From the NCBI RefSeq assembly GCF_020164485.1, contig NZ_JAIQZA010000002.1, positions 62,001-126,000 on the forward strand: a DNA stretch of 64,000 nt. Reading direction: 5' to 3'. The notes under the pieces are model-generated. The model worked only from the letters and a program-made list of their open reading frames with translations. It ran no database searches and was not told the DNA's origin. Position 1 is the stretch's first letter, and each line of letters begins with the position of its first letter. The translations under genes were made by a program, and so were the position numbers. Source of the stretch: Salegentibacter tibetensis. GTDB taxonomy: Bacteria > Bacteroidota > Bacteroidia > Flavobacteriales > Flavobacteriaceae. Positions 17,398 through 28,476 of the stretch are shown here, in pieces.

Positions 17398-18454
17398 GAC
17401 AGATATCCTGATAATTGGGGCCGGACCAACCGGATTGTTTACCGTTTTTGAAGCGGGATTGCTAAAGTTGAAAACCCACTTAATAGACGCGCTGCCGCAA
17501 CCCGGCGGGCAATGTTCTGAGATATATCCTAAAAAACCAATTTATGATATTCCGGCATTTCCAGAGATTTTAGCGGGAGATTTGGTTGGAAACCTCATGG
17601 AACAAATAAAACCTTTTGAACCAGGCTTCACTTTGGGCGAACGCGCCGAAACTTTGGAAAAGCTGGACGATGGTACTTTTATAGTAACCACAAATAAAGG
17701 CACCAAACACCACGCACCCGTGGTGGCTATAGCCGGTGGATTAGGTTCTTTTGAACCAAGAAAACCCCCTATTGCCAATATTGCAGATTTTGAAGATAAG
17801 GGTGTTTCTTATTTTATTAAAGATCCTGAAGTTTACCGCGATAAGAAAGTTGTGATCGCCGGTGGAGGGGATTCAGCTTTAGACTGGGCCATTTACCTGG
17901 CCGATGTTGCTGCTGAAGTTGCTTTGGTACACCGGAGGGCAGAGTTCCGTGGGGCATTGGATTCTGTAGAAAGAGTTTCAGAATTGGCCAAACTTGGTAA
18001 GATTGAAATGATAACCAATGCTGAGGTTGTTGGCCTTAGAGGTGAAGATCAACTTGAGCAGGTGGTAATTAGGCATAAAGATGAAGCCCGCGGGGAGGAA
18101 TTTAAAGACGTAGACGATTTTATTCCGCTTTTCGGATTGTCGCCTAAACTGGGCCCGATTGGAAGCTGGGGGCTGGAAATAGAGAAAAATGCGATTAAAG
18201 TTGATAATTCTTACGATTATCAAACCAACATTCCCGGTGTTTATGCCATTGGTGATGTAAACACTTATAAAGGAAAATTGAAATTGATCCTTTCCGGTTT
18301 TCACGAAGCGGCGATTATGTGTCAAAGTGCTTATCAGCGAATTTTTCCTGATAAAAAATATGTACTTAAGTACACCACCGTTGGTGGCGTAACCGGATTT
18401 GATGGTAGTAAAAAAGAAGCCAAAAAAGAAGTGGTACAGAGTATTGGGGTGTAA
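17390..18454 (+). CDS. Ferredoxin/flavodoxin-NADP reductase (thioredoxin reductase-like)
   Basis: A flavoprotein of about 354 residues with the FAD motif ILIIGAGPTGLF near the N terminus, the NADPH motif VVIAGGGDSALDWA in the middle and GVYAIGDVNTYKGK near the C terminus. The CxxC redox motif of thioredoxin reductase is absent, which points to the TrxR-like ferredoxin-NADP reductase class. As the last gene of the sir-cobA-cysG cluster it probably supplies electrons to sulfite reductase. ATG 17390 was chosen over the overlapping GTG at 17387. Confidence 0.87.
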   Translation: MIKTDILIIGAGPTGLFTVFEAGLLKLKTHLIDALPQPGGQCSEIYPKKPIYDIPAFPEILAGDLVGNLMEQIKPFEPGFTLGERAETLEKLDDGTFIVTTNKGTKHHAPVVAIAGGLGSFEPRKPPIANIADFEDKGVSYFIKDPEVYRDKKVVIAGGGDSALDWAIYLADVAAEVALVHRRAEFRGALDSVERVSELAKLGKIEMITNAEVVGLRGEDQLEQVVIRHKDEARGEEFKDVDDFIPLFGLSPKLGPIGSWGLEIEKNAIKVDNSYDYQTNIPGVYAIGDVNTYKGKLKLILSGFHEAAIMCQSAYQRIFPDKKYVLKYTTVGGVTGFDGSKKEAKKEVVQSIGV

Positions 18455-18630
18455 TCCCCTGGCCCCGAAGGGGGAATTAATTAGAATAAAATACAATAGT
18501 TTTAAAGCTTATTAAGCTCCCCTCCTTTTTAAGGAGGGGTGGCCGATAGGCCGGGGTGGTTTAACCCTTCTGTCATTGCTTCGGAATGCCCGTTTCGCTT
18601 GAGAAGGGAGGAGTTTTAACCGCCATATAT
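18455..18630. repeat. Intergenic GC-rich repeats downstream of the sulfur operon
   Basis: Two palindromic motifs follow the reductase stop. One is cccctggccccgaaggggg (about 18459-18473). The other is the hairpin cccctcc-ttttt-aaggagggg around 18515-18538, followed by ggccgataggccggggtgg. They resemble the ends of the DUF559 insertion in metH (agccccccagcctccaaaagg) and belong to the same broad class of C/G-rich flavobacterial intergenic repeats. No coding content is visible. Confidence 0.55.
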
Positions 18631-18740
18631 AGCGTGTGTCGAGTTAATCGGGAAGAGCCGTATCAAGAAAGCTTTCGGGAGTGGAGAGGCGCACTCCGTC
18701 AATTTCTGACGGAGCCGTCTACTTGATTGGCGGTAGTACT
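18631..18740. mobile_element. Possible degenerate 3' end of a group II intron
   Basis: The stretch contains cgagttaatcgggaagagccg, then gaaagct, then ggcgcactccgtc, a hairpin with tgacggagccgtc and ctacttgattggcggtag. This layout resembles the domain V/VI tail of bacterial group II introns (GAGCCGTA...GAAA..., then a D6-like hairpin). The second strand of domain V (...ACGGTTC) is not recognisable and no reverse transcriptase is nearby. At best it is a decayed remnant, recognised from memory only. Confidence 0.3.
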
Positions 18741-18751
18741 TAAACGAATTT

Positions 18752-19609
18752 TTAATTTAACCACTTTTTTACTCCACCATGTCCTGAACAAGTTCCTCGT
18801 CTATTTCTACTAAAGCTATAGGTTCCGTCTTTACATAATGCTGTCGCTCCGTTCGGTGGTGAATTATAATAGGATGGAGATTGGACCTTTTCTCCAAAAG
18901 AATTAGTGTAAAACTTTACATTTGATCTTGGTTGATTATAATTATTGTTGTTATAATCAGGATAATATTTTTCTTTAGGTTTGTAGTTAAGAATTGAGGA
19001 GACTTTACTTTCTTTTTCTTCATTTAGTCTCCTTAATTCATTTGCACGATCAATTTGAATTTCTCTATATTCAGCAACTACGTGTAAATAGTTGGAAACC
19101 GAATCAAAATTTTGGAGGTTAGAATTTAGATCTTCAAGATTTTGTTTTTGAGTTTGAATTTCTACTTTGTATAAGTACATTGATTCAACTTCATTCTCGA
19201 ATTTAACTATGTATTCTTCTAATTCATTCAGACTATTTTTCTGAAATGAAAGATTATCTTTTATTCTTTCAAGATGTTTTTGTTTTGTATTTAAATCAGA
19301 TCGAAGCTCTTCTAAATCCTGAATATTATTTGTTGCTCTTATTTCATCTCTATATAGGATTAGATTTTCTCTAATTTCCTTAGCTTCTTTAAATAATGAT
19401 TGAATTTCCTGGAATTTTTTTTCTATGTGATATTTATCATTGTCATAGGCCTCAGTGGTATTGAGAACTACATCATCATCAAAATATCTTTCGTACAATG
19501 TATAGTATCGGTTTTCTCCTGCTACAAATTCAGATTTTTTACTTATAAAAAATTCATAAATGGAAACGGAAGCAACTAATATTAAGAGAAAGGAAAATAT
19601 TCGTTTCAT
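18752..19609 (-). CDS. DUF3761-type secreted/membrane-anchored coiled-coil protein
   Basis: A 285-residue protein. Residues 1-20 form a hydrophobic signal or anchor. Residues about 60-200 are strongly heptad-like and rich in Glu, Lys, Leu and Asn (coiled coil). The C-terminal 35 residues (ALCKDGTYSFSRNRRGTCSG, then HGGVKKWL) match the DUF3761 pattern. Function is unknown. It is the last of three co-oriented accessory genes separated by related spacers and has lower GC than the flanking metabolic genes. Confidence 0.7.
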   Translation of the reverse strand: MKRIFSFLLILVASVSIYEFFISKKSEFVAGENRYYTLYERYFDDDVVLNTTEAYDNDKYHIEKKFQEIQSLFKEAKEIRENLILYRDEIRATNNIQDLEELRSDLNTKQKHLERIKDNLSFQKNSLNELEEYIVKFENEVESMYLYKVEIQTQKQNLEDLNSNLQNFDSVSNYLHVVAEYREIQIDRANELRRLNEEKESKVSSILNYKPKEKYYPDYNNNNYNQPRSNVKFYTNSFGEKVQSPSYYNSPPNGATALCKDGTYSFSRNRRGTCSGHGGVKKWLN

Positions 19610-19779
19610 CTAATTGTTTTTAAAAAAGTATTACCACCAACAGCTACGGTTACCTCAAGTTTTGAAATTATGGATCCGGACTTGTCGGCTTAGTTATTTT
19701 CTTTCCTGGTTTCTACTAAAATTATAGTTTTTCTACAATACCCGTTATTTGCGATGAACCGATGTTATGATTTGTAATT
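19610..19779 (-). repeat. Cassette-type spacer repeat 1 (attC-like?)
   Basis: It shares two ordered blocks with the spacer at 20503-20649: gtcggcttagttattt (19684-19699) and cgttatttgcgatgaaccg (19743-19761), 59 bp apart. The ends carry imperfectly complementary motifs (cataac on the gene-proximal side; ggtaac/gttacc). The arrangement recalls integron gene-cassette spacers, but no integrase is seen. Confidence 0.5.
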
Positions 19780-20502
19780 TTATTCATCACTCAATAGAAG
19801 TTTCGTTTCAATTTCTCTCTTATTTTCTCCCAATACTTTTAAATACTCATTTAGGTAATCAGATAAACTATCAAGGTCTTGGTACAAACTAAGTTTATTT
19901 ATTCCATAAAAATCTAAAGATCTAATTATTCCATTTTTTGATTTGGAATCGATAACTATTTTATGAAGTTGTTTTCCTAAAGTTTTTTCTAAACCAATTT
20001 CAGGTTTACCCGAGATTGTGAATAAACCTCTTTGATTTATAATTCGGGATGCTAAACCGCTTGGAAAGAAAACAGCAAAATTTTTAAACTCAAAAGGATT
20101 TTCTCCTCTTTCAAATTCATTAATATCTGTAATGGCATAATAGTATATTACACCATCTTTATCGAAATTTTCATAACAAGCAAAATAAGCTGCAACTAAA
20201 GGATTTTTTGACCAATCTAATAATCTAGTTCCTAATCCGTGATGTTGAGCAATAGCCAGCCAATCCCAGTCATTATCAGGATATTTATCTAAATGAAATT
20301 TGGCATATCTTTTCCAAGCTTTGAAAGTATGAGCATCTGTGAAAGTTGCAGAATAATTTTTATGGAATTCTTTTCTTCCTGCTTTTGGAATAACAGACCA
20401 ATTCTTATCTGATTGTCCCCTAAAAATTAATGTATTTCTTTTCTTTAGAGGCTCGAGTTTTTTAATTAATTCCTCAAAACTTTTGATGTATATCTCTTTC
20501 AT
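19780..20502 (-). CDS. FRG domain protein
   Basis: A 240-residue protein with the FRG signature TLIFRGQSDKNWSVIPKAGR near residue 25 and the second core motif AQHHGLGTRLLDWSKNPLVA near residue 88, followed by YYAITDI. FRG proteins are often carried on mobile elements and near defence systems; their biochemical role is unknown. It has no signal peptide. It lies between two related spacer repeats, which suggests a mobile cassette. Confidence 0.85.
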   Translation of the reverse strand: MKEIYIKSFEELIKKLEPLKKRNTLIFRGQSDKNWSVIPKAGRKEFHKNYSATFTDAHTFKAWKRYAKFHLDKYPDNDWDWLAIAQHHGLGTRLLDWSKNPLVAAYFACYENFDKDGVIYYYAITDINEFERGENPFEFKNFAVFFPSGLASRIINQRGLFTISGKPEIGLEKTLGKQLHKIVIDSKSKNGIIRSLDFYGINKLSLYQDLDSLSDYLNEYLKVLGENKREIETKLLLSDE

Positions 20503-20649
20503 AAATTATTAAGCATAACGGTTGCAGCTGTCGCTAGTTTCGGGAATAAAGACTCGGATTAGTCGGCTTAGTTGTTTAATAATTGGCTACAAAATAGTAA
20601 TTTTTCAGCATACTACTCGTTATTTTCAATGAGCCGTGGTTAGCCACTG
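20503..20649 (-). repeat. Cassette-type spacer repeat 2 (attC-like?)
   Basis: It contains gtcggcttagttgttt (20562-20577) and cgttattttcaatgagccg (20618-20636), 56 bp apart, matching the spacer at 19610-19779. It begins near gcataacggttgcagctgtc and ends near ccgtggttagccac, so the ends are partly inverted. Confidence 0.5.
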
Positions 20650-21171
20650 TTAATTTTCTTCCACTAAAACATAATTGGAGTCCATCTTTGGATTTTTATT
20701 ATATCCTATAACTATTTTAAAACCTGGTAACTGCCATTCTCTCAATTCGAAATGAGATTGCTCATTCATAGTCATTAAATCATATTTTGTGAATTCTTGA
20801 CCTAAATATTTAGCTTCACCAAGTTCTACATAAAATTTATCCACTAAAACTTTAATTGATCTTTCTTCTGGATGATTTTGAGCGAGATAAAGAGATTTTG
20901 TTCCATCTTTATTATCAGTTAAACTTATGTAATCAAACTCTTTATCTCCCAACTCAAATGTTATATCGGAAACTTTAATAGCACCAGCTAGTTCTTCATT
21001 CAATGAAATTTCAGACGGCTCCATTTCTTCGTGATTATAATAATAAGGATTTATTCCAAGTTTGGAAAGAATTGCTTTTGTTCCTTCTTTTGTTCTTGTC
21101 TGCTTTATTTTTTCAGACTTTGAATTATTAGACGAACTTTTGTTTGATTTGAAAAAATCGAATAGTCCCAT
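20650..21171 (-). CDS. Hypothetical protein with Ser/Asn/Lys-rich N terminus
   Basis: A 173-residue protein I do not recognise. It starts MGLFDFFKSN and then a Ser/Asn/Lys-rich linker (residues 9-30), like many phage-type or cassette-borne small proteins. The rest looks like a compact alpha/beta domain (FELGDKEFDYISLTDNKDGT). No signal peptide, membrane helix or catalytic motif was seen. It is the first gene of the three-gene cassette-like array. Confidence 0.6.
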   Translation of the reverse strand: MGLFDFFKSNKSSSNNSKSEKIKQTRTKEGTKAILSKLGINPYYYNHEEMEPSEISLNEELAGAIKVSDITFELGDKEFDYISLTDNKDGTKSLYLAQNHPEERSIKVLVDKFYVELGEAKYLGQEFTKYDLMTMNEQSHFELREWQLPGFKIVIGYNKNPKMDSNYVLVEEN

Positions 21172-21391
21172 TTTTTTGAAAATTTATTGTTGTGAACTCG
21201 TTAAACCCACATCCTTCCAAACTGAACTAAAGTTCGCAACCAGTATAAAAGCAGGTTTATTTATAAGCTTCCCGTAAATCTATTAAAAATCTGTTAATTT
21301 CATTTACGAGAATCCGTAAACCCTGCATAAGCTTTAGAACTGTGAGGTTTTTTAGTAAGCATTGCTTAAGTTTGTTCAAAATAAGATTCCA

Positions 21392-21814
21392 ATGAAGATT
21401 AGCCTTAAAAGACTCAATAAAGATTATCATTTTGAAACCGTAAACGAACGTGGAGACATTGTTCACTTAGACAATAAAACCGATGCCGAACCAAAGGGCG
21501 CCAGCCCAATGGATTTATTGCTTCGGGCCATTGCCGGTTGCAGCAGTATTGATATTGTTATGATCCTTAAAAAGCAACACCTGGAACTTGAAGATCTTCA
21601 GGTAGAAGTTGAAGGTTTTAGGGAAGATGGTGCGATACCCAATGTTTTTAAGGAAATTCAGCTTAATTTTCTTTTAAAAGGAGATGTGCCTGCAGCAAAA
21701 GCAAAACGCGCAGTAGACCTTTCTATGGAGAAATACTGTTCTGTTTCTAAAATGCTGGAAAAGGCAGCTGAAATTAATTATGCTATTACTCTAAACGGGG
21801 AGTTGATAAATTAA
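21392..21814 (+). CDS. OsmC family protein
   Basis: A 140-residue OsmC/Ohr-fold protein. Start ATG 21392 (MKISLKRLNKDYHFE) was chosen over a TTG-type extension at 21362. The segment PKGASPMDLLLRAIAGCSSIDIV holds the first conserved Cys, and KYCSVSKMLEKAAEI the second, the pair used for thiol peroxidase activity. It probably detoxifies organic hydroperoxides. A small stem, ttattact/aagtaataa, lies about 30 bp after the stop. Confidence 0.87.
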   Translation: MKISLKRLNKDYHFETVNERGDIVHLDNKTDAEPKGASPMDLLLRAIAGCSSIDIVMILKKQHLELEDLQVEVEGFREDGAIPNVFKEIQLNFLLKGDVPAAKAKRAVDLSMEKYCSVSKMLEKAAEINYAITLNGELIN

Positions 21815-21964
21815 AAGATTCTGTTTATTTGCCTTATTAATTTTTATTACTTCAGTGAAAGTAATAAGGATCACCTGTTTTTTAGAAATAAATTACAGTA
21901 GGGCAACTAAAATAAATTATCCGTAAAAATAGTAAGCACACCTTGCATTTAAAAGGCTGTGCCG

Positions 21965-21972
21965 TATATTTG
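21965..21972 (+). promoter_or_regulatory. TAnnTTTG promoter element of metH
   Basis: TATATTTG is a perfect -7 box. It lies about 29 bp before the SAM-I aptamer, so the aptamer would be near the 5' end of the transcript. Confidence 0.65.
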
Positions 21973-22000
21973 CTGATTCAAGTTCATTGTTTATAACATC

Positions 22001-22105
22001 GTTATCAAGAAAGGTTGAGGGAATAGACCCGTTGAAACCTTGGCAACCCTCCTGTAATGGGAGAAGGTGCTACGTTCTACTGCGCTTTTGGCGCAGATAG
22101 ATAAC
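22001..22105 (+). promoter_or_regulatory. SAM-I (S-box) riboswitch upstream of metH
   Basis: The classical S-box core is present: P1 gttatc (22001-22006) with gataac (22100-22105), then caagaaaggttgaggga, gacccgttgaaaccttggcaacc and gaaggtgctac. The P4 hairpin ctgcgc...gcgcag is intact. It should bind SAM and reduce expression of the split methionine synthase and metF when SAM is plentiful. A short palindrome gaaagaattctttc with a T run follows within 40 nt and may be the expression platform. Confidence 0.95.
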
Positions 22106-22159
22106 AAGAAAGAATTCTTTCCCGCTTCTTTTTTTGATAGTGATTTTAGATAAAATTAT

Positions 22160-23176
22160 ATGTCGAAATTAGAAGAACAACTTCAAAAAAATATACTCAT
22201 TTTAGACGGTGCCATGGGCACGATGCTTCAGGATTACAAATTTTCTGAAGAGGATTTCCGTGGAAAACGTTTTGCTGACTGGCCGGTACCGGTGCAGGGA
22301 AATAACGACCTGTTATCCATTACCCAGCCTGAAGCAATTGCAACCATTCACCGCAAATATTTTGAAGCCGGTGCCGATATTGTGGAAACCAACACCTTTT
22401 CTGCAACCACCATCGCTATGGCCGATTATAAAATGGAAGAGCTGGTAGATGAACTCAATTATGAGTCGGCCAGGATTGCCAAAGAAGTCGCCGTAAAAAT
22501 GACTGAAGAAAATCCGGAAAAACCTCGTTTTGTAGCCGGCGCTATTGGGCCAACCAACAAAACAGCGAGTATGAGTCCCGATGTTAACGATCCCGGTTTC
22601 AGGGCAATTTCGTTTGAAGAATTGCGGGTAGCATATAAACAACAGGCCAAAGCTTTAATAAAAGGTGGCGTGGATATACTTCTGGTAGAAACCGTTTTCG
22701 ACACTTTAAACGCTAAAGCCGCGCTTTTTGCCATAGAAGAACTTAAAGAAGAATTGCAACTCGATATTCCTATAATGGTTAGCGGAACAATTACCGATGC
22801 TTCGGGCCGAACCTTATCGGGGCAAACCGCTGAAGCTTTTCTAATTTCAGTATCGCATATTCCGTTGCTAAGTGTTGGTTTTAACTGCGCTTTGGGCGCT
22901 AAAGAACTAACTCCGCACTTGGAGGTTTTAAACCGTTTTGCGAGTTCCGGTGTTTCGGCTTATCCTAACGCAGGCTTGCCAAATGCTTTTGGAGAATATG
23001 ATCAGGATGCTGAAGAAATGGCAACGCAGATCAAAGAATATTTAGAAAAAGGACTGGTAAATATCCTGGGAGGTTGCTGCGGAACAACACCTGAGCATAT
23101 TAAAGCTATAGCTGAAATCGCCAAAGATTATAATCCCAGAAAAATAGTGGAACCTGAATTTTCCACCGCTTTATGA
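22160..23176 (+). CDS. metH: Methionine synthase, homocysteine S-methyltransferase module (split MetH, part 1)
   Basis: A 338-residue Zn-dependent barrel that activates homocysteine for methyl transfer. The N-terminal [12 protein letters not shown] is the typical start. The Zn cysteines are C243 ([10 protein letters not shown]) and C306-C307 ([10 protein letters not shown]). In enterobacteria this is the first module of one large MetH protein. Bacteroidota commonly encode it separately, as here, with a 4-bp overlap into the second gene. It is controlled by the SAM-I riboswitch upstream. Confidence 0.95.
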
Positions 23177-26100
23177 TAGAAACAGTGAAAAAAGAAACAG
23201 ATCAGGAGGAATTTTCTACCCCTAATAAAAAACAAAAAGAGGTGAGACCTCTGAAATTATCAGGCCTTGAGCCACTAATAATTACTCCCGACAGTAATTT
23301 TGTAAATGTAGGGGAGCGTACCAATGTGGCCGGTTCCAAAAAATTTCTTCGGTTAATTAAAGAAGAGAAATTTGAAGAAGCCCTTGAAGTTGCCAGGGAC
23401 CAGGTAGATGGTGGGGCGCAGATTATTGACATCAATATGGACGATGGCCTTATTGAAGGTAAAGAGGCTATGGTGAAGTTCCTAAACCTAATTGTAGCCG
23501 AACCCGATATTGCCCGTGTGCCTATTATGATAGACAGTTCTAAATGGGAGATTATTGAAGCCGGTTTGCAGGTGGTCCAGGGAAAATGTGTGGTGAATTC
23601 CATTAGCCTTAAAGAAGGTGAAGCAGAATTTATTGAGCACGCCACCAAAATAAAGCGCTACGGGGCAGCGGTAATTGTAATGGCTTTTGATGAAGTGGGG
23701 CAGGCCGATAATTATGAACGCCGAATTGAAATCGCAAAACGATCTTATGATATTCTGGTCAATAAAGTGAAATTTCCGCCCGAGGACATCATTTTTGACC
23801 TGAATATTTTCCCGGTGGGAACCGGGATGGACGAGCATAAACGCAATGCTATAGATTTTATTGAGGGAACACGTTGGGTAAAAGAAAACCTTCCACATTG
23901 CAGTATAAGCGGCGGAGTGAGCAATGTTTCGTTTTCCTTCCGCGGAAATAATCCGGTACGGGAAGCCATGCATTCGGTGTTTTTGTATTACGCTATTAAA
24001 GCCGGAATGAATATCGGGATTGTAAATCCTGCACTTCTTGAAGTTTATGATAATATTCCAAAAGATCTTTTAGAACATGTTGAAGACGTAATCCTGGACA
24101 GGAGGGAAGATGCCACCGAGCGCCTGCTTGAATTTGCCGAAACAGTGGTAGGTTCAAAACGAGAAAGTAGAGTAGATCTTTCGTGGAGGGAAAAACCCTT
24201 GCAGGATAGGGTTACCCACGCACTGGTAAAGGGAATCGATGCTTTTATTTTAGAGGATATAGAACAGGCCCGCCAGGAAGCCGATCAACCTATTGAGGTC
24301 ATCGAAGGTCATTTGATGATAGGAATGAACGTGGTTGGTGATCTATTTGGAAGCGGAAAGATGTTTCTTCCACAGGTAGTGAAATCGGCGCGGGTAATGA
24401 AGAAAGCGGTAGCTTATCTTTTACCTTATATAGAAGCTGCAAAAAAAGCCCCCCAGCCTCCAAAAGGGGAGGATTATTGGGAAAAGGCTGAACCGGAACT
24501 CTTCGTTTCAATGAAGGAATTTGCCAAAAAACATCGCTATAATAATATTAGTGAAGCCGAAACCATTTTGGGTGATGTTTTAGATACAGGGGACTTAAAG
24601 GATTATGAGTTTAAGAAACAGCATATAATAGGAAGTTATATAGCCGATTTTGTGTGTCTTAAAGAAAAGCTTGTCGTAGAAATTGATGGCTTGATCCATC
24701 AATTGCCCGAAGATAAAACAACTAACGAAGAAAGAACAGCCTGGCTAAAAGAGCACGAGTTCAGAATTATTAGGTTTAAGGGCGATGATATACATTCTGA
24801 TCTGGACAGCGTTGTAAATAAAATTTCCAGAATGCTTAAAAAGGCGCCACCATCGAGTGCTGGAGGGGCTGGAAAAGTTTTAATGGCCACCGTTAAGGGA
24901 GATGTTCATGACATTGGGAAGAATATTGTGAGCGTGGTATTGAGTTGCAATAATTATGAAATTATAGACCTGGGCGTTATGGTGCCTTCAGAAAAAATTA
25001 TAGCAACAGCCAAAGCAGAAGGTGTTGATGCTATTGGGCTAAGCGGTTTGATCACACCTTCTTTAGACGAGATGGTTTTCCTGGCCAAAGAGATGGAACG
25101 GCAAAATTTTGACGTGCCTTTGTTAATTGGAGGCGCCACTACTTCAAAAGCGCATACAGCGGTTAAAATAGATCCGCAATATAAAAATGCGGTTGCCCAC
25201 GTAAACGATGCTTCCCGTGCAGTTACCGTAATTGGTGATTTATTGCGGGAAGATACTCGTATAAAATATATGAGCGATCTTAAAGCCGAATATGATAAAT
25301 TCAGGCTTAATTTTAAGAAAAGGAGTAAGGTGAAATCCTTTTTACCTATAGAAGAAGCAAGAAAAAACAAGTATTCAATTGAGTGGGAAACCACTCAAAT
25401 CACTAAGCCAAATAAGCCGGGAATTCAGCAGATTGATGATTTCGATTTAAAAGAACTTGAAGCTTTTATAGACTGGAGTCCGTTTTTTAGAAGCTGGGAT
25501 TTGCACGGCCGGTACCCCGATATTTTAAAAGATAAAGTAGTAGGGGAACAGGCAACTTCTTTATTTGCAGATGCTAAAGTTTTGCTGAAAAGAATTCTTG
25601 ATGAGAAATTATTAAAAGCAAAAGCGGTGTACGGATTGTTTCCGGCAACTACCATAAACGATGATGACATCGAGGTTTCTTATGAAGAGGATTCAGAAGG
25701 AAAAACGATGCTTTTCAGAACCCTTCGGCAGCAATTAAAAAAGCACGGAGGAAAACCAAACTTTGCGCTTTCCGACTTTATTGCGCCAAAGGAAACGGGA
25801 ATTCAGGATTATATCGGTTGTTTTTGTGTGACAACAGGTTTTGGAACTGCAGAGCTCGCCGCGAAATTTGAAGAAGACCACGACGATTATAATTCGATAA
25901 TGATAAAAGCCCTGGCCGATCGTCTTGCGGAAGCTTTTGCAGAATATTTACATAAAAAGATAAGACGCGAAGATTGGGGTTATGCTCCCGAAGAGAATTT
26001 AAGCAACGAAGAATTAATTAAGGAAACCTATAAGGGAATTCGCCCCGCACCGGGTTATCCGGCCTGTCCAGATCATTTGGAGAAACTAAGTATTTGGGAG

Positions 26101-26316
26101 GTTTTAAAGGTAAAAGAGCGAATTGGCGTAGAGCTTACCGAAAGTCTGGCGATGTGGCCGGCCGCAAGTGTAAGTGGTTATTATTTTGCCAATCCTGAAG
26201 CGCGTTATTTTGGCCTTGGTAAAATTAAAGACGACCAGGTAAAAGATTTTGCCGAGAGAAAGGGAATTCCGTTGAAGAAAGCTGAAAAATGGCTTAACCC
26301 GAATATCGCAGATTAA
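23173..26316 (+). CDS. metH: B12-dependent methionine synthase, folate/B12/activation modules, interrupted in frame by a DUF559 domain
   Basis: A 1047-residue protein; about 900 is usual for this split half. Order: pterin-binding barrel (about 35-300, [16 protein letters not shown]); four-helix cap to about residue 425; a foreign 141-residue segment (426-566); the B12-binding Rossmann domain with GDVHDIGK (axial His H579); and the SAM-binding activation domain with [12 protein letters not shown] (957-968). Homologues run from the cap (..PYIEA.K) almost straight into GK..(M/L)[11 protein letters not shown], so removing 426-566 restores a normal protein. All catalytic motifs on both sides are intact, which suggests the enzyme tolerates the insertion in this surface linker. 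metF follows 78 bp downstream. Confidence 0.95.
24447..24870 (+). mobile_element. DUF559 endonuclease-like element inserted in frame in metH
   Basis: About 424 bp with imperfect terminal inverted repeats: left agccccccagcctcc, right (reverse complement) agcccctccagcactc. It encodes residues 426-566 of the host protein. [13 protein letters not shown] and the E-rich helix lead into [15 protein letters not shown] and [11 protein letters not shown], then [18 protein letters not shown]. This is a complete DUF559 (Vsr-like PD-(D/E)xK superfamily) domain with D492, E503, D505 and H509 in the expected order. Stand-alone DUF559 genes in flavobacteria are often flanked by similar C/G-rich palindromes. 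There are no intein splicing residues at the edges. Confidence 0.85.
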
Positions 26317-26394
26317 ACATAATGAATAGCAAGGTAGATTGTAAAAATGTAGAATGAAAGTACAGTTTACAATATACATTTTACATAAGATTAA

Positions 26395-27351
26395 ATGAAA
26401 GTAACAGAACATATAAAACAAGCTAAAGGAGAAACATTATTCTCTTTTGAAATCGTTCCACCACAAAAAGGAAGGAATATTCAGGATCTCTATAATAATA
26501 TAGATCCCCTAATGGAGTTTAATCCGCCGTTTATAGATGTGACTACCTCTCGGGAAGAACACGTTTATATTAAAAAAGCGGACGGTTTACTGGAAAGAAA
26601 GATAACCCGTATGCGCCCCGGAACGGTTGGAATTTGTGCAGCAATAAAGCAAAAATATAATGTAGATACTATTCCACATGTACTTTGTGGCGGTTTTACC
26701 CGGGAGGAAACTGAGTATTTACTGGTAGACTGTCATTACCTGGGTATTGAAAATGTAATGGCACTTCGCGGGGATGCTATGAAACACCAACGCTATTTTG
26801 AACCTACTCATGGTGGAAACTGTTTTGCCAGTGAGCTGGTAACACAAATTAAAGATTTGGGAGAAGGAAAATACCTAAACGAAGTTATTGAATCTGATAA
26901 TAACGCCGATTTTTGTATTGGTGTGGCCGGTTATCCCGAGAAACACCTGGAATCACCGTCTTTACAAACCGACTTAAAAAGGCTTAAGGAAAAAATAGAT
27001 GCAGGCGCAGATTATGTGGTAACACAAATGTTTTTTAATAATAAAGCTTATTTTAATTTTGTAGACCTGGCAAGGGCAGCAGGAATCACTGTTCCCATAA
27101 TTCCCGGTATAAAACCAATAGCCGTTAAAAGACACCTGCAACTGTTGCCACAGGTATTCAGCATAGATTTGCCTGAAGAATTGATAAAAAATGTGGAAGC
27201 CTGTAAAAACAATACCGAAGTTAGGAAAGTTGGTATTGAATGGGCTATAGAACAATCTAAAGAACTGAAAGACGCCGGAGTTCCTGTTTTGCATTATTAT
27301 TCAATGGGAAAAAGTACTAATGTTCAGAAAATTGCGGAGGCGGTTTTTTAA
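26395..27351 (+). CDS. metF: Methylenetetrahydrofolate reductase
   Basis: A 318-residue FAD enzyme supplying 5-methyl-THF to the methionine synthase encoded just upstream. The start MKVTEHIKQAKGETLFSFEI has the catalytic Glu in the FEI..P segment. LRGDAMKHQ, ADFCIGVAGYPEKH and VTQMFFNNKAYF are family hallmarks. The 78-bp gap after metH contains no terminator, so it is probably in the same SAM-I-controlled operon. Confidence 0.95.
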   Translation: MKVTEHIKQAKGETLFSFEIVPPQKGRNIQDLYNNIDPLMEFNPPFIDVTTSREEHVYIKKADGLLERKITRMRPGTVGICAAIKQKYNVDTIPHVLCGGFTREETEYLLVDCHYLGIENVMALRGDAMKHQRYFEPTHGGNCFASELVTQIKDLGEGKYLNEVIESDNNADFCIGVAGYPEKHLESPSLQTDLKRLKEKIDAGADYVVTQMFFNNKAYFNFVDLARAAGITVPIIPGIKPIAVKRHLQLLPQVFSIDLPEELIKNVEACKNNTEVRKVGIEWAIEQSKELKDAGVPVLHYYSMGKSTNVQKIAEAVF

Positions 27352-27375
27352 AATATTAGGCTACATTTGCGGATA

Positions 27376-28476
27376 ATGAAGAAAATTACCGCCCTTATTT
27401 TTCTTTTTATCCTCGATAGTATATCGGCCCAGGAACCCGGGAAGAATTATTATTCTTTTGATGCCAGTTATTTCTACGGAACCATTGCCGAGCATAGTCC
27501 CGATATTGCCCATTTAATTACCGGACATCCTACGGGGCTTATCCTTGGTTTTAATAAAAAAAGTTTCGGATTTGAAGATTGGGAAAAACGCTACAACTAT
27601 CCCGATGTGGGAGTTTCCCTTACCTATCAGGATCTGAAAAATCCTGATTTGGGCGAGAATTACGGACTTTACTCGCATATGAATTTCTACCTGTTCAAAC
27701 GCAATTTAATGTTTAGAATAGGACAGGGGCTTGCTTATGCTTCCAATCCATATCATCCCGATAATAATTTTAAAAATAACGCCTACGGTTCGCGCTTGCT
27801 TAGTTCTACCTACCTGATGGCGAATTATAAAAAAGAGAATATTTTTGAAGGTTTGGGCATGCAGGCAGGCTTATCATTAATTCACTATTCCAATGCCGAT
27901 TTCACTTCTCCAAATTCCAGCACCAATACTGTTACTTTTAACCTGGGAGTGAATTATGTGCTGGATCATCAAAACCAGCCAAATTATATTCCTAAAGGAC
28001 CTAAAGAAAAATATACAGAGCCAGTTCATCTAAATTTTGCTTTACGGAGCGGGGTAAACACCATGGGAATTATCGGGTCTAAACAATACCCGTTTTTGAC
28101 TTTTTCAGCTTACGCCGATAAGGTGCTGAATCATAAAAGTACTCTCCAGGCAGGAACAGAGCTTTTCCTTTCAAAAGCAATGGAAGAACGTATTTATTAC
28201 CAGTCCGTAGCCTTTCCTTCCGGAAATACTACCGGCGATGAAGATTCAAAACGCGTTGGAATTTTTGTTGGACATCAGTTAAATTTCAATAAATTATCGG
28301 TGATCACCCACCTGGGATATTATGCCTATTTTCCTTATGAGCATTTTGTAGATCAGTTATATAACCGGGTTGGTTTACAAAGAAAAATTACCGAGAATCT
28401 TTGGGCTTCGCTCACCGTGCGATCCCATTATGCCAATGCTGAAGCTGTAGAACTTTCAATAGGATATCGATTATGA
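27376..28476 (+). CDS. PagL-like lipid A deacylase/acyloxyacyl hydrolase
   Basis: A protein of about 366 residues with a signal peptide ending near ISAQ. ATG 27376 (MKKITALIFLF) was preferred to TTG 27367. The middle part has the outer-membrane beta-barrel pattern of alternating hydrophobic residues, and LSLIHYSNADF contains the His-x-Ser-Asn signature of the PagL active site. The second half (after about 200) adds a further barrel-like region, which makes it longer than classical PagL. It probably trims lipid A acyl chains in the outer membrane. Confidence 0.78.
   Translation: MKKITALIFLFILDSISAQEPGKNYYSFDASYFYGTIAEHSPDIAHLITGHPTGLILGFNKKSFGFEDWEKRYNYPDVGVSLTYQDLKNPDLGENYGLYSHMNFYLFKRNLMFRIGQGLAYASNPYHPDNNFKNNAYGSRLLSSTYLMANYKKENIFEGLGMQAGLSLIHYSNADFTSPNSSTNTVTFNLGVNYVLDHQNQPNYIPKGPKEKYTEPVHLNFALRSGVNTMGIIGSKQYPFLTFSAYADKVLNHKSTLQAGTELFLSKAMEERIYYQSVAFPSGNTTGDEDSKRVGIFVGHQLNFNKLSVITHLGYYAYFPYEHFVDQLYNRVGLQRKITENLWASLTVRSHYANAEAVELSIGYRL

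Follow-up and report, generated by a model that had tools for sequence, protein, structure and literature searches.

In-frame DUF559 nuclease elements with palindromic ends in methionine synthase and other enzymes of Bacteroidota: a probable splicing-free homing-type mobile element

Selfish DNA residing in essential genes is, to our knowledge, generally thought to need splicing, whether as an intron or as an intein. Inteins are in-frame selfish inserts in conserved genes and come with a homing nuclease. RAYT proteins are Y1 (HUH) transposases, and Rickettsia palindromic elements are short and are not known to have a gene of their own. Palindromic DNA of this kind is described as lying in frame in protein genes, where it is apparently tolerated (PMC3733652). 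The EDxHD (Vsr-like) homing endonucleases of the I-Bth0305I family are described from introns and free genes (PMC3943268), and in fungal mitochondria the rps3/homing-endonuclease fusions have an endonuclease frame fused to the host gene (PMC10448965). No description of an element such as the one reported below was found in searches of the open-access literature.

The locus lies in the window, by which we mean the whole 64,000-nucleotide stretch of Salegentibacter tibetensis DNA that was analysed. It has the following features:

21999..22107, plus strand: SAM riboswitch upstream of both metH genes (RF00162, 92.2 bits, gathering threshold 44.4)
22160..23176, plus strand: first metH gene, coding for the homocysteine S-methyltransferase module; shares 4 nt with the second metH
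23173..26316, plus strand: second metH gene (pterin, B12 cap, B12-binding and activation domains) with the in-frame insert, 1047 aa
24447..24870, plus strand: inserted element, full extent, 424 nt, with boundaries set by empty relatives and by the two-copy MetH of genome G251
24447..24471, plus strand: left palindromic end AGCCCCCCAGCCTCCAAAAGGGGAG, read in the protein as APQPPKGE, 2 mismatches to the repeat pattern
24514..24837, plus strand: DUF559 / Vsr-like nuclease domain (PF04480, aa 448-555), with a lead segment from 24475
24845..24870, minus strand: decayed palindrome at the right end, in inverted orientation to the left one; its counterpart in genome G014 is well kept

The initial annotation had placed a DUF559 element at 24447-24870 inside the second MetH, and Pfam finds PF04480 (DUF559) within these coordinates (aa 448-555, E 6e-24, 84.4 bits against a cut-off of 20.6). 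The proposed position between the B12 cap and the B12 domain is confirmed by the Pfam order, the cap (aa 344-416) and the B12-binding domain (aa 567-660) flanking DUF559, and by empty relatives, which have a short linker there; both joints were likewise confirmed to be in frame and free of stops in the open reading frame 23173-26316. The element begins with AGCCCC and ends with GGCT. Its ends had been called imperfect inverted repeats, which needs qualification in both directions: some relatives have near-perfect ones, while the window copy is decayed and its left and right ends match over only about 12 nt. Their suggested likeness to the repeats at 18459-18540 turned out to be weak in sequence (local scores of 7.5 and 8.5, obtained without a control).

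Over the same span filled MetH has 1016 aa and empty MetH 881 aa. Because this net gain is 135 aa and the element is 424 nt long, about 19 nt of the MetH linker were replaced, so that it was not cleanly split. No target-site duplication with clean insertion was seen, and short loops are replaced in both MetH and IleRS. The second metH is the only MetH locus detected in the window genome (G000) at E ≤ 0.001, the four further matches of that search being DUF559 genes. Three tandem solo DUF559 genes of 122 aa each are present in the same genome (G000:C115:37417-38583, L002-L004). A structure model of the full MetH (mean pLDDT 76, pTM 0.49) was used for the joints only, the relative placement of the domains being disregarded given these values; the joints at 424-431 and 558-564 have a pLDDT below 50.

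Empty sites exist among close relatives. MetH carries the insert in eight of 14 same-genus relatives and lacks it in five, with one incomplete genome giving no match. At the site, empty genes have a short linker such as IEADKSSKRSSAGKV or a near variant, and this short loop is replaced at the junction; the right-hand side of filled genes reads, for example, KKAPPSGAGGAGKV. The domain is not an old conserved fusion shared by MetH throughout Bacteroidota, as 20 of the 30 loci in a tree built from MetH outside the insert lack it. The 10 filled and 20 empty loci are interleaved in this host tree, insert presence requires five changes, all of them forced by starred branches, and filled and empty genes form sister pairs (G014/G004, 100/99; G012/G005, 98/99). 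Insert and host histories disagree: between G002 and G009 dS is 0.51 for the host and 1.71 for the insert, and between G012 and G013 it is 1.06 for the host and 0.47 for the insert. The insert is under purifying selection that is weaker than that on the host (dN/dS of 0.05-0.19 in the 15 of 45 pairs that could be estimated, against 0.02-0.06).

Host DNA next to the insertion was compared in 14 same-genus genomes (G029 excluded), and the pair G002-G009 was singled out post hoc, after all 91 pairs had been viewed. From about -120 to +200 codons around the insertion the two genes are 13-19% different in seven of eight forty-codon windows and 5% different in the eighth; elsewhere in the gene the difference is 2-9%. 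The near/far ratio of this pair, 1.96, is the top value of the 91, followed by 1.50 (also with G009), and the median is 1.03. The best-fitting tract centre is 22-32 codons off the insertion. Inside the tract G002 resembles the window genome G000 in seven of eight bins, and outside it resembles G009 in 13 of 15. Such a tract is what homing with co-conversion would leave, but ordinary recombination could leave it too.

DUF559 embedded in unrelated proteins, which the initial annotation had suggested searching for, was found across Bacteroidota. DUF559 occurs in 143 of the 299 genomes of the family search, at least 30 of which have a copy within an open frame of at least 800 aa; the phylum search covered 395 genomes, 189 of them matching the alignment of embedded domains, and the scan of named genomes covered the best 80 of 565 relatives. 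Host domains flank DUF559 on both sides (Pfam) in 13 protein families among the matches listed. Eight of them are MetH, LeuRS, IleRS, MetRS, IcmF, CinA, adenine deaminase and an aldehyde dehydrogenase-MaoC protein (PaaZ-like), LeuRS, IleRS and MetRS being related class I synthetases. The remaining flanked hosts are RecG, a UvrD-type helicase, Eco57I-type enzymes, HsdR and type ISP enzymes. There are about 22 insertion sites among the matches listed, several host families having two or more, and the sites represented by MetH L176 and IleRS L201 were defined partly by sequence motifs read by eye. The domain is terminal in some proteins, namely at the C end of HisD and at the N end of HemD, HisF and HemF, which may be plain gene fusions. 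PaaZ, IcmF, HemF and HisF are the names that we presume to go with the Pfam domains found. HsdS (L238) and the rows labelled other are unconfirmed as hosts, except L110 and L092, which are LeuRS by sequence. The 193 labelled domains correspond to 188 distinct ones, with at least four same-place pairs (L012/L126, L106/L177, L152/L212, L015/L114). Several type I, Eco57I-type and ISP restriction enzymes with embedded DUF559 (L225-L241) have other palindromic ends.

In each of the 19 genomes searched, which were taken from 25 LeuRS site 1 rows, the gene with the insert is the sole LeuRS locus found, and the other matches of this search were DUF559 domains or weak synthetase matches below 38 bits. 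Since cells cannot do without LeuRS, the enzyme must be functional in these genomes either as the chimaera or in some processed form. Enzymes such as LeuRS and IleRS bear out the earlier claim that the element enters essential genes, but the hosts also include nonessential proteins such as restriction enzymes. Within the genus, IleRS is filled in two of nine genomes and has the loop NKEKVEEGERQ or a close variant in the other seven, this loop being replaced by the insert; for LeuRS, two filled genes were compared with seven empty ones. Within this one genus the empty LeuRS linkers (L291-L297) are of two lengths, short and long. In the LeuRS of G016 (L111) DUF559 is strongly decayed, with the frame open and several of the six putative catalytic residues lost; this copy may have reached a late point in the element's life cycle.

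One MetH, that of G251, has two inserts at two places; their DNA is 81% identical and the likeness stops at the palindromes. In L175, from a Flavobacterium MAG, the second MetH insert likewise has its closest relative in the first insert of its own gene (87.9% aa identity). A second MetH loop, located in the activation domain (DDIE..LRQQ), is hit in four loci (L068, L148, L164, L175). By eye, the activation-domain loop of the L073 MetH seems to hold a repeat scar without DUF559, and other long MetH loops, repeat-derived in appearance, are found in L114 and L133. L151, assigned to a Nitrotoga MAG, is a contig whose MetH and insert look like those of Flavobacterium, possibly owing to a binning error. 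A phage origin was considered and rejected: the 45 viral relatives are only 24-39% identical and include no close source.

Across 30 aligned embedded domains the residues E, H, D, E, D and H do not vary, and all six of these putative catalytic residues are retained in 149 of the 163 non-solo copies and in 27 of the 30 solo ones. They are intact in the window copy, in which a nearly invariant Trp is changed to Gly. One or two of the six are missing in four of the nine filled copies of the genus (G002, G006, G009, G010). Besides PF04480 the inserts match PF18741 more weakly and, once, PF10881. A structure model of the domain (pLDDT 87.5) was compared with known structures by Foldseek, which gave 3r3p (I-Bth0305I) and 3hrl as the best matches and the sole hits at E ≤ 0.001 (3r3p E 1.7e-5); profile search finds the same two structures (3r3p HMM E 9.6e-8). 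The profile alignment to 3r3p matches H50 and E69, the first residue of the E.D motif; D58, D71 and H75 face A, N and W, and E29 falls outside the aligned part. With 3hrl all of the six residues line up except the first His. The model and the profiles show fold and sequence kinship with the catalytic domain of EDxHD/Vsr-like homing endonucleases. A DUF559 gene has been placed in the EDxHD homing family (PMC9403480), and DUF559 is reported to be frequent among Vsr-like endonucleases (PMC12907096).

Both ends of well-kept copies are the same palindrome in inverted order, e.g., CCCCCCAGCCCCCGAAGGGGGAG and CCCCCCCGCCCCCGAAGGGGGAG in L152. The mobile-element interpretation had been made to depend on inverted ends at other DUF559 loci, and such ends are present there, though not everywhere: in 91 of the 163 non-solo copies and 21 of the 30 solo ones they score above every one of 60 shuffles. 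By site, the counts are 33 of 55 for MetH site 1, 8 of 23 for LeuRS site 1, 1 of 11 for RecG and 0 of 3 for IcmF site 1. The palindrome type varies among copies. Left and right ends of one copy resemble each other more (mean score 13.3) than ends of different copies do (9.1; n=135), an advantage reached in none of 2000 permutations overall and none of 2000 within sites (n=135), but the own partner is the single best end in just 16 of the 135 copies. For solo copies the scores are 15.5 and 9.0, with the own partner best in 11 of 30.

The repeat is also found outside the element in all six genomes searched, which have from 4 to 30 matches each, element ends counted, against 0 to 1 for the reversed control. 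The window genome has three further matches at no more than one mismatch, which are better copies than the stretch at 18459-18540, and none to the reversed pattern. Read in the MetH frame, the repeat contains a stop codon in none of six MetH left ends and in 40 of 53 copies elsewhere, or 42 of 60 once seven rows of irregular form are restored. This count covers 59 of 75 repeat rows, six right ends and ten overlapping or irregular rows being excluded, and the absence of stops in MetH ends is partly built in, since embedded copies were found via an open frame and a stop would end the host frame.

Host-site labels cluster on the tree of copies, requiring 36 changes against 114.5 in shuffles. The nearest neighbour is at the same host site for 44 of 51 MetH site 1 rows, and RecG copies and HemD copies form single clades. 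Each site has mostly its own lineage, which is expected of homing endonucleases and also of vertical descent. In a quick tree MetH site 1 shows nine changes, four of them forced by starred branches. A more careful tree was built from 105 rows, after dropping short rows and rows at least 72% alike, and without restriction-enzyme hosts, HemF, HisF, rows labelled other, L089, L111 and L230. It gives three changes for MetH site 1 (one forced), four for IleRS (two forced) and five for LeuRS (one forced). Recurrent independent hits at one site are suggested by the trees, but they are not claimed here, as a single clade per site is not rejected by the AU test (p-AU 0.154 for MetH site 1, 0.189 for IleRS, 0.204 for LeuRS).

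Patchy presence, other hosts and the defined ends of the best-kept copies support the original proposal of a mobile element tolerated in frame as an added domain, and we regard it as well supported that such an insertion element, which brings a nuclease domain of its own, moves and is tolerated by the host proteins. More specifically, and with a probability of roughly 0.64, it is a homing-type mobile element with REP-like ends that dispenses with splicing and persists as an additional domain of the protein; the nuclease would do the homing. Nuclease-driven spread by homing is the most likely mode given the kinship, the selection and the one tract, and the segment is presumably retained in the protein unspliced, as scans of the sequences gave no known splicing domain or intron family. 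The element is built from a single open frame, coding for a DUF559 (Vsr-like, PD-(D/E)XK-type) nuclease, and two GC-rich palindromes that flank it in inverted orientation. The left palindrome of MetH copies is free of stops in the frame used and both palindromes would be translated as Pro/Gly-rich linkers, so that insertion in a surface loop would add a folded domain with the host enzyme still working. The nuclease would cut the empty allele and repair would copy the element together with its flanks; rarer jumps to new loops would found new site-specific lineages, and the chimaeric protein would be made and left unspliced. A broader version, to which we give slightly less than an even chance, has phylum-wide splicing-free homing elements in which one sequence serves as nuclease gene, REP-like ends and linkers. 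These would persist as tolerated loop domains of core enzymes, home with co-conversion, sometimes jump loops and shed their ends as palindromic repeats.

The palindromes could instead be the mobile part, moved by other machinery or by general recombination and tolerated like Rickettsia palindromic elements, with DUF559 as a passenger rather than the motor and its spread as ordinary allele exchange. The occurrence of the repeat away from any DUF559 element in the six genomes searched, the apparent scar without DUF559 in the activation-domain loop of the L073 MetH (by eye) and the persistence of copies with damaged active sites all fit this explanation. It sits poorly with the six putative catalytic residues kept in 149 of the 163 non-solo copies, with purifying selection on the inserts and with a homing endonuclease among the nearest structures, and we consider it unlikely, if worth keeping in mind. 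The domain could also be an old fusion that serves the host protein and descended vertically with scattered losses, as the same-site nearest neighbours of most MetH site 1 rows (44 of 51) and the single clades of RecG and HemD would allow. This was rejected, and is very improbable, since sister species differ in insert presence and insert and host distances are discordant; the tract around the insertion, the two copies in one gene and the 13 host protein families among the matches listed speak against it as well.

Removal of the element by splicing, from protein or from RNA, would account for an in-frame position in conserved genes and for a homing-type nuclease, both of which are intein-like. 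An intein was rejected as no Hint or other splicing domain is present in 30 chimaeric proteins (Pfam, E ≤ 0.001), and an intron as Rfam at gathering thresholds gives no group I or II intron in window positions 18000-27500, where the SAM riboswitch is the sole match; together with Pro/Gly-rich ends that vary in length and sequence, this makes a spliced element hardly credible. Purifying selection on the insert and restriction enzymes among the hosts would suit a beneficial module, e.g., a guard nuclease tied to core enzymes in defence, but its presence is patchy in sister species and the hosts span many pathways, and we hold this to be the least probable of the explanations considered.

If a splicing-free homing-type element is the correct reading, a self-coding element seems to manage without splicing in enzymes indispensable to the cell (LeuRS, IleRS). 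The roughly 22 natural sites, among the matches listed, at which an enzyme accepts a folded domain of about 110 residues amount to a test of domain entry, and the element is a possible origin of GC-rich palindromic repeats in Bacteroidota.

Compared with known systems, the nuclease domain is closest to the EDxHD (Vsr-like) homing endonucleases, being alike in profile and fold to I-Bth0305I (3r3p). The long DNA-binding part described for I-Bth0305I (PMC3943268) is absent from the inserted DUF559 domain, which is translated as part of the host protein; no intron was detected, and the active site lines up only in part. The best-kept copies resemble Rickettsia palindromic elements in being palindromic in-frame insertions, a likeness drawn from descriptions, but the DUF559 element differs in being about 400 nt long, in coding for a nuclease and in residing in MetH, aminoacyl-tRNA synthetases, RecG and others of Bacteroidota. 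With REP/RAYT it shares a nuclease gene between inverted palindromes and further palindrome copies in the genome, if not for every DUF559 copy; unlike REP/RAYT, the insert has PF04480, matches no Y1 family and is located inside proteins. Inteins differ in that no splicing domain was found in the DUF559 chimaeras, whose extra segment is expected to stay in the protein. Finally, the rps3 fusions are two frames joined within an intron (PMC10448965), whereas DUF559 sits in loops inside a number of bacterial enzymes and often has palindromic ends.
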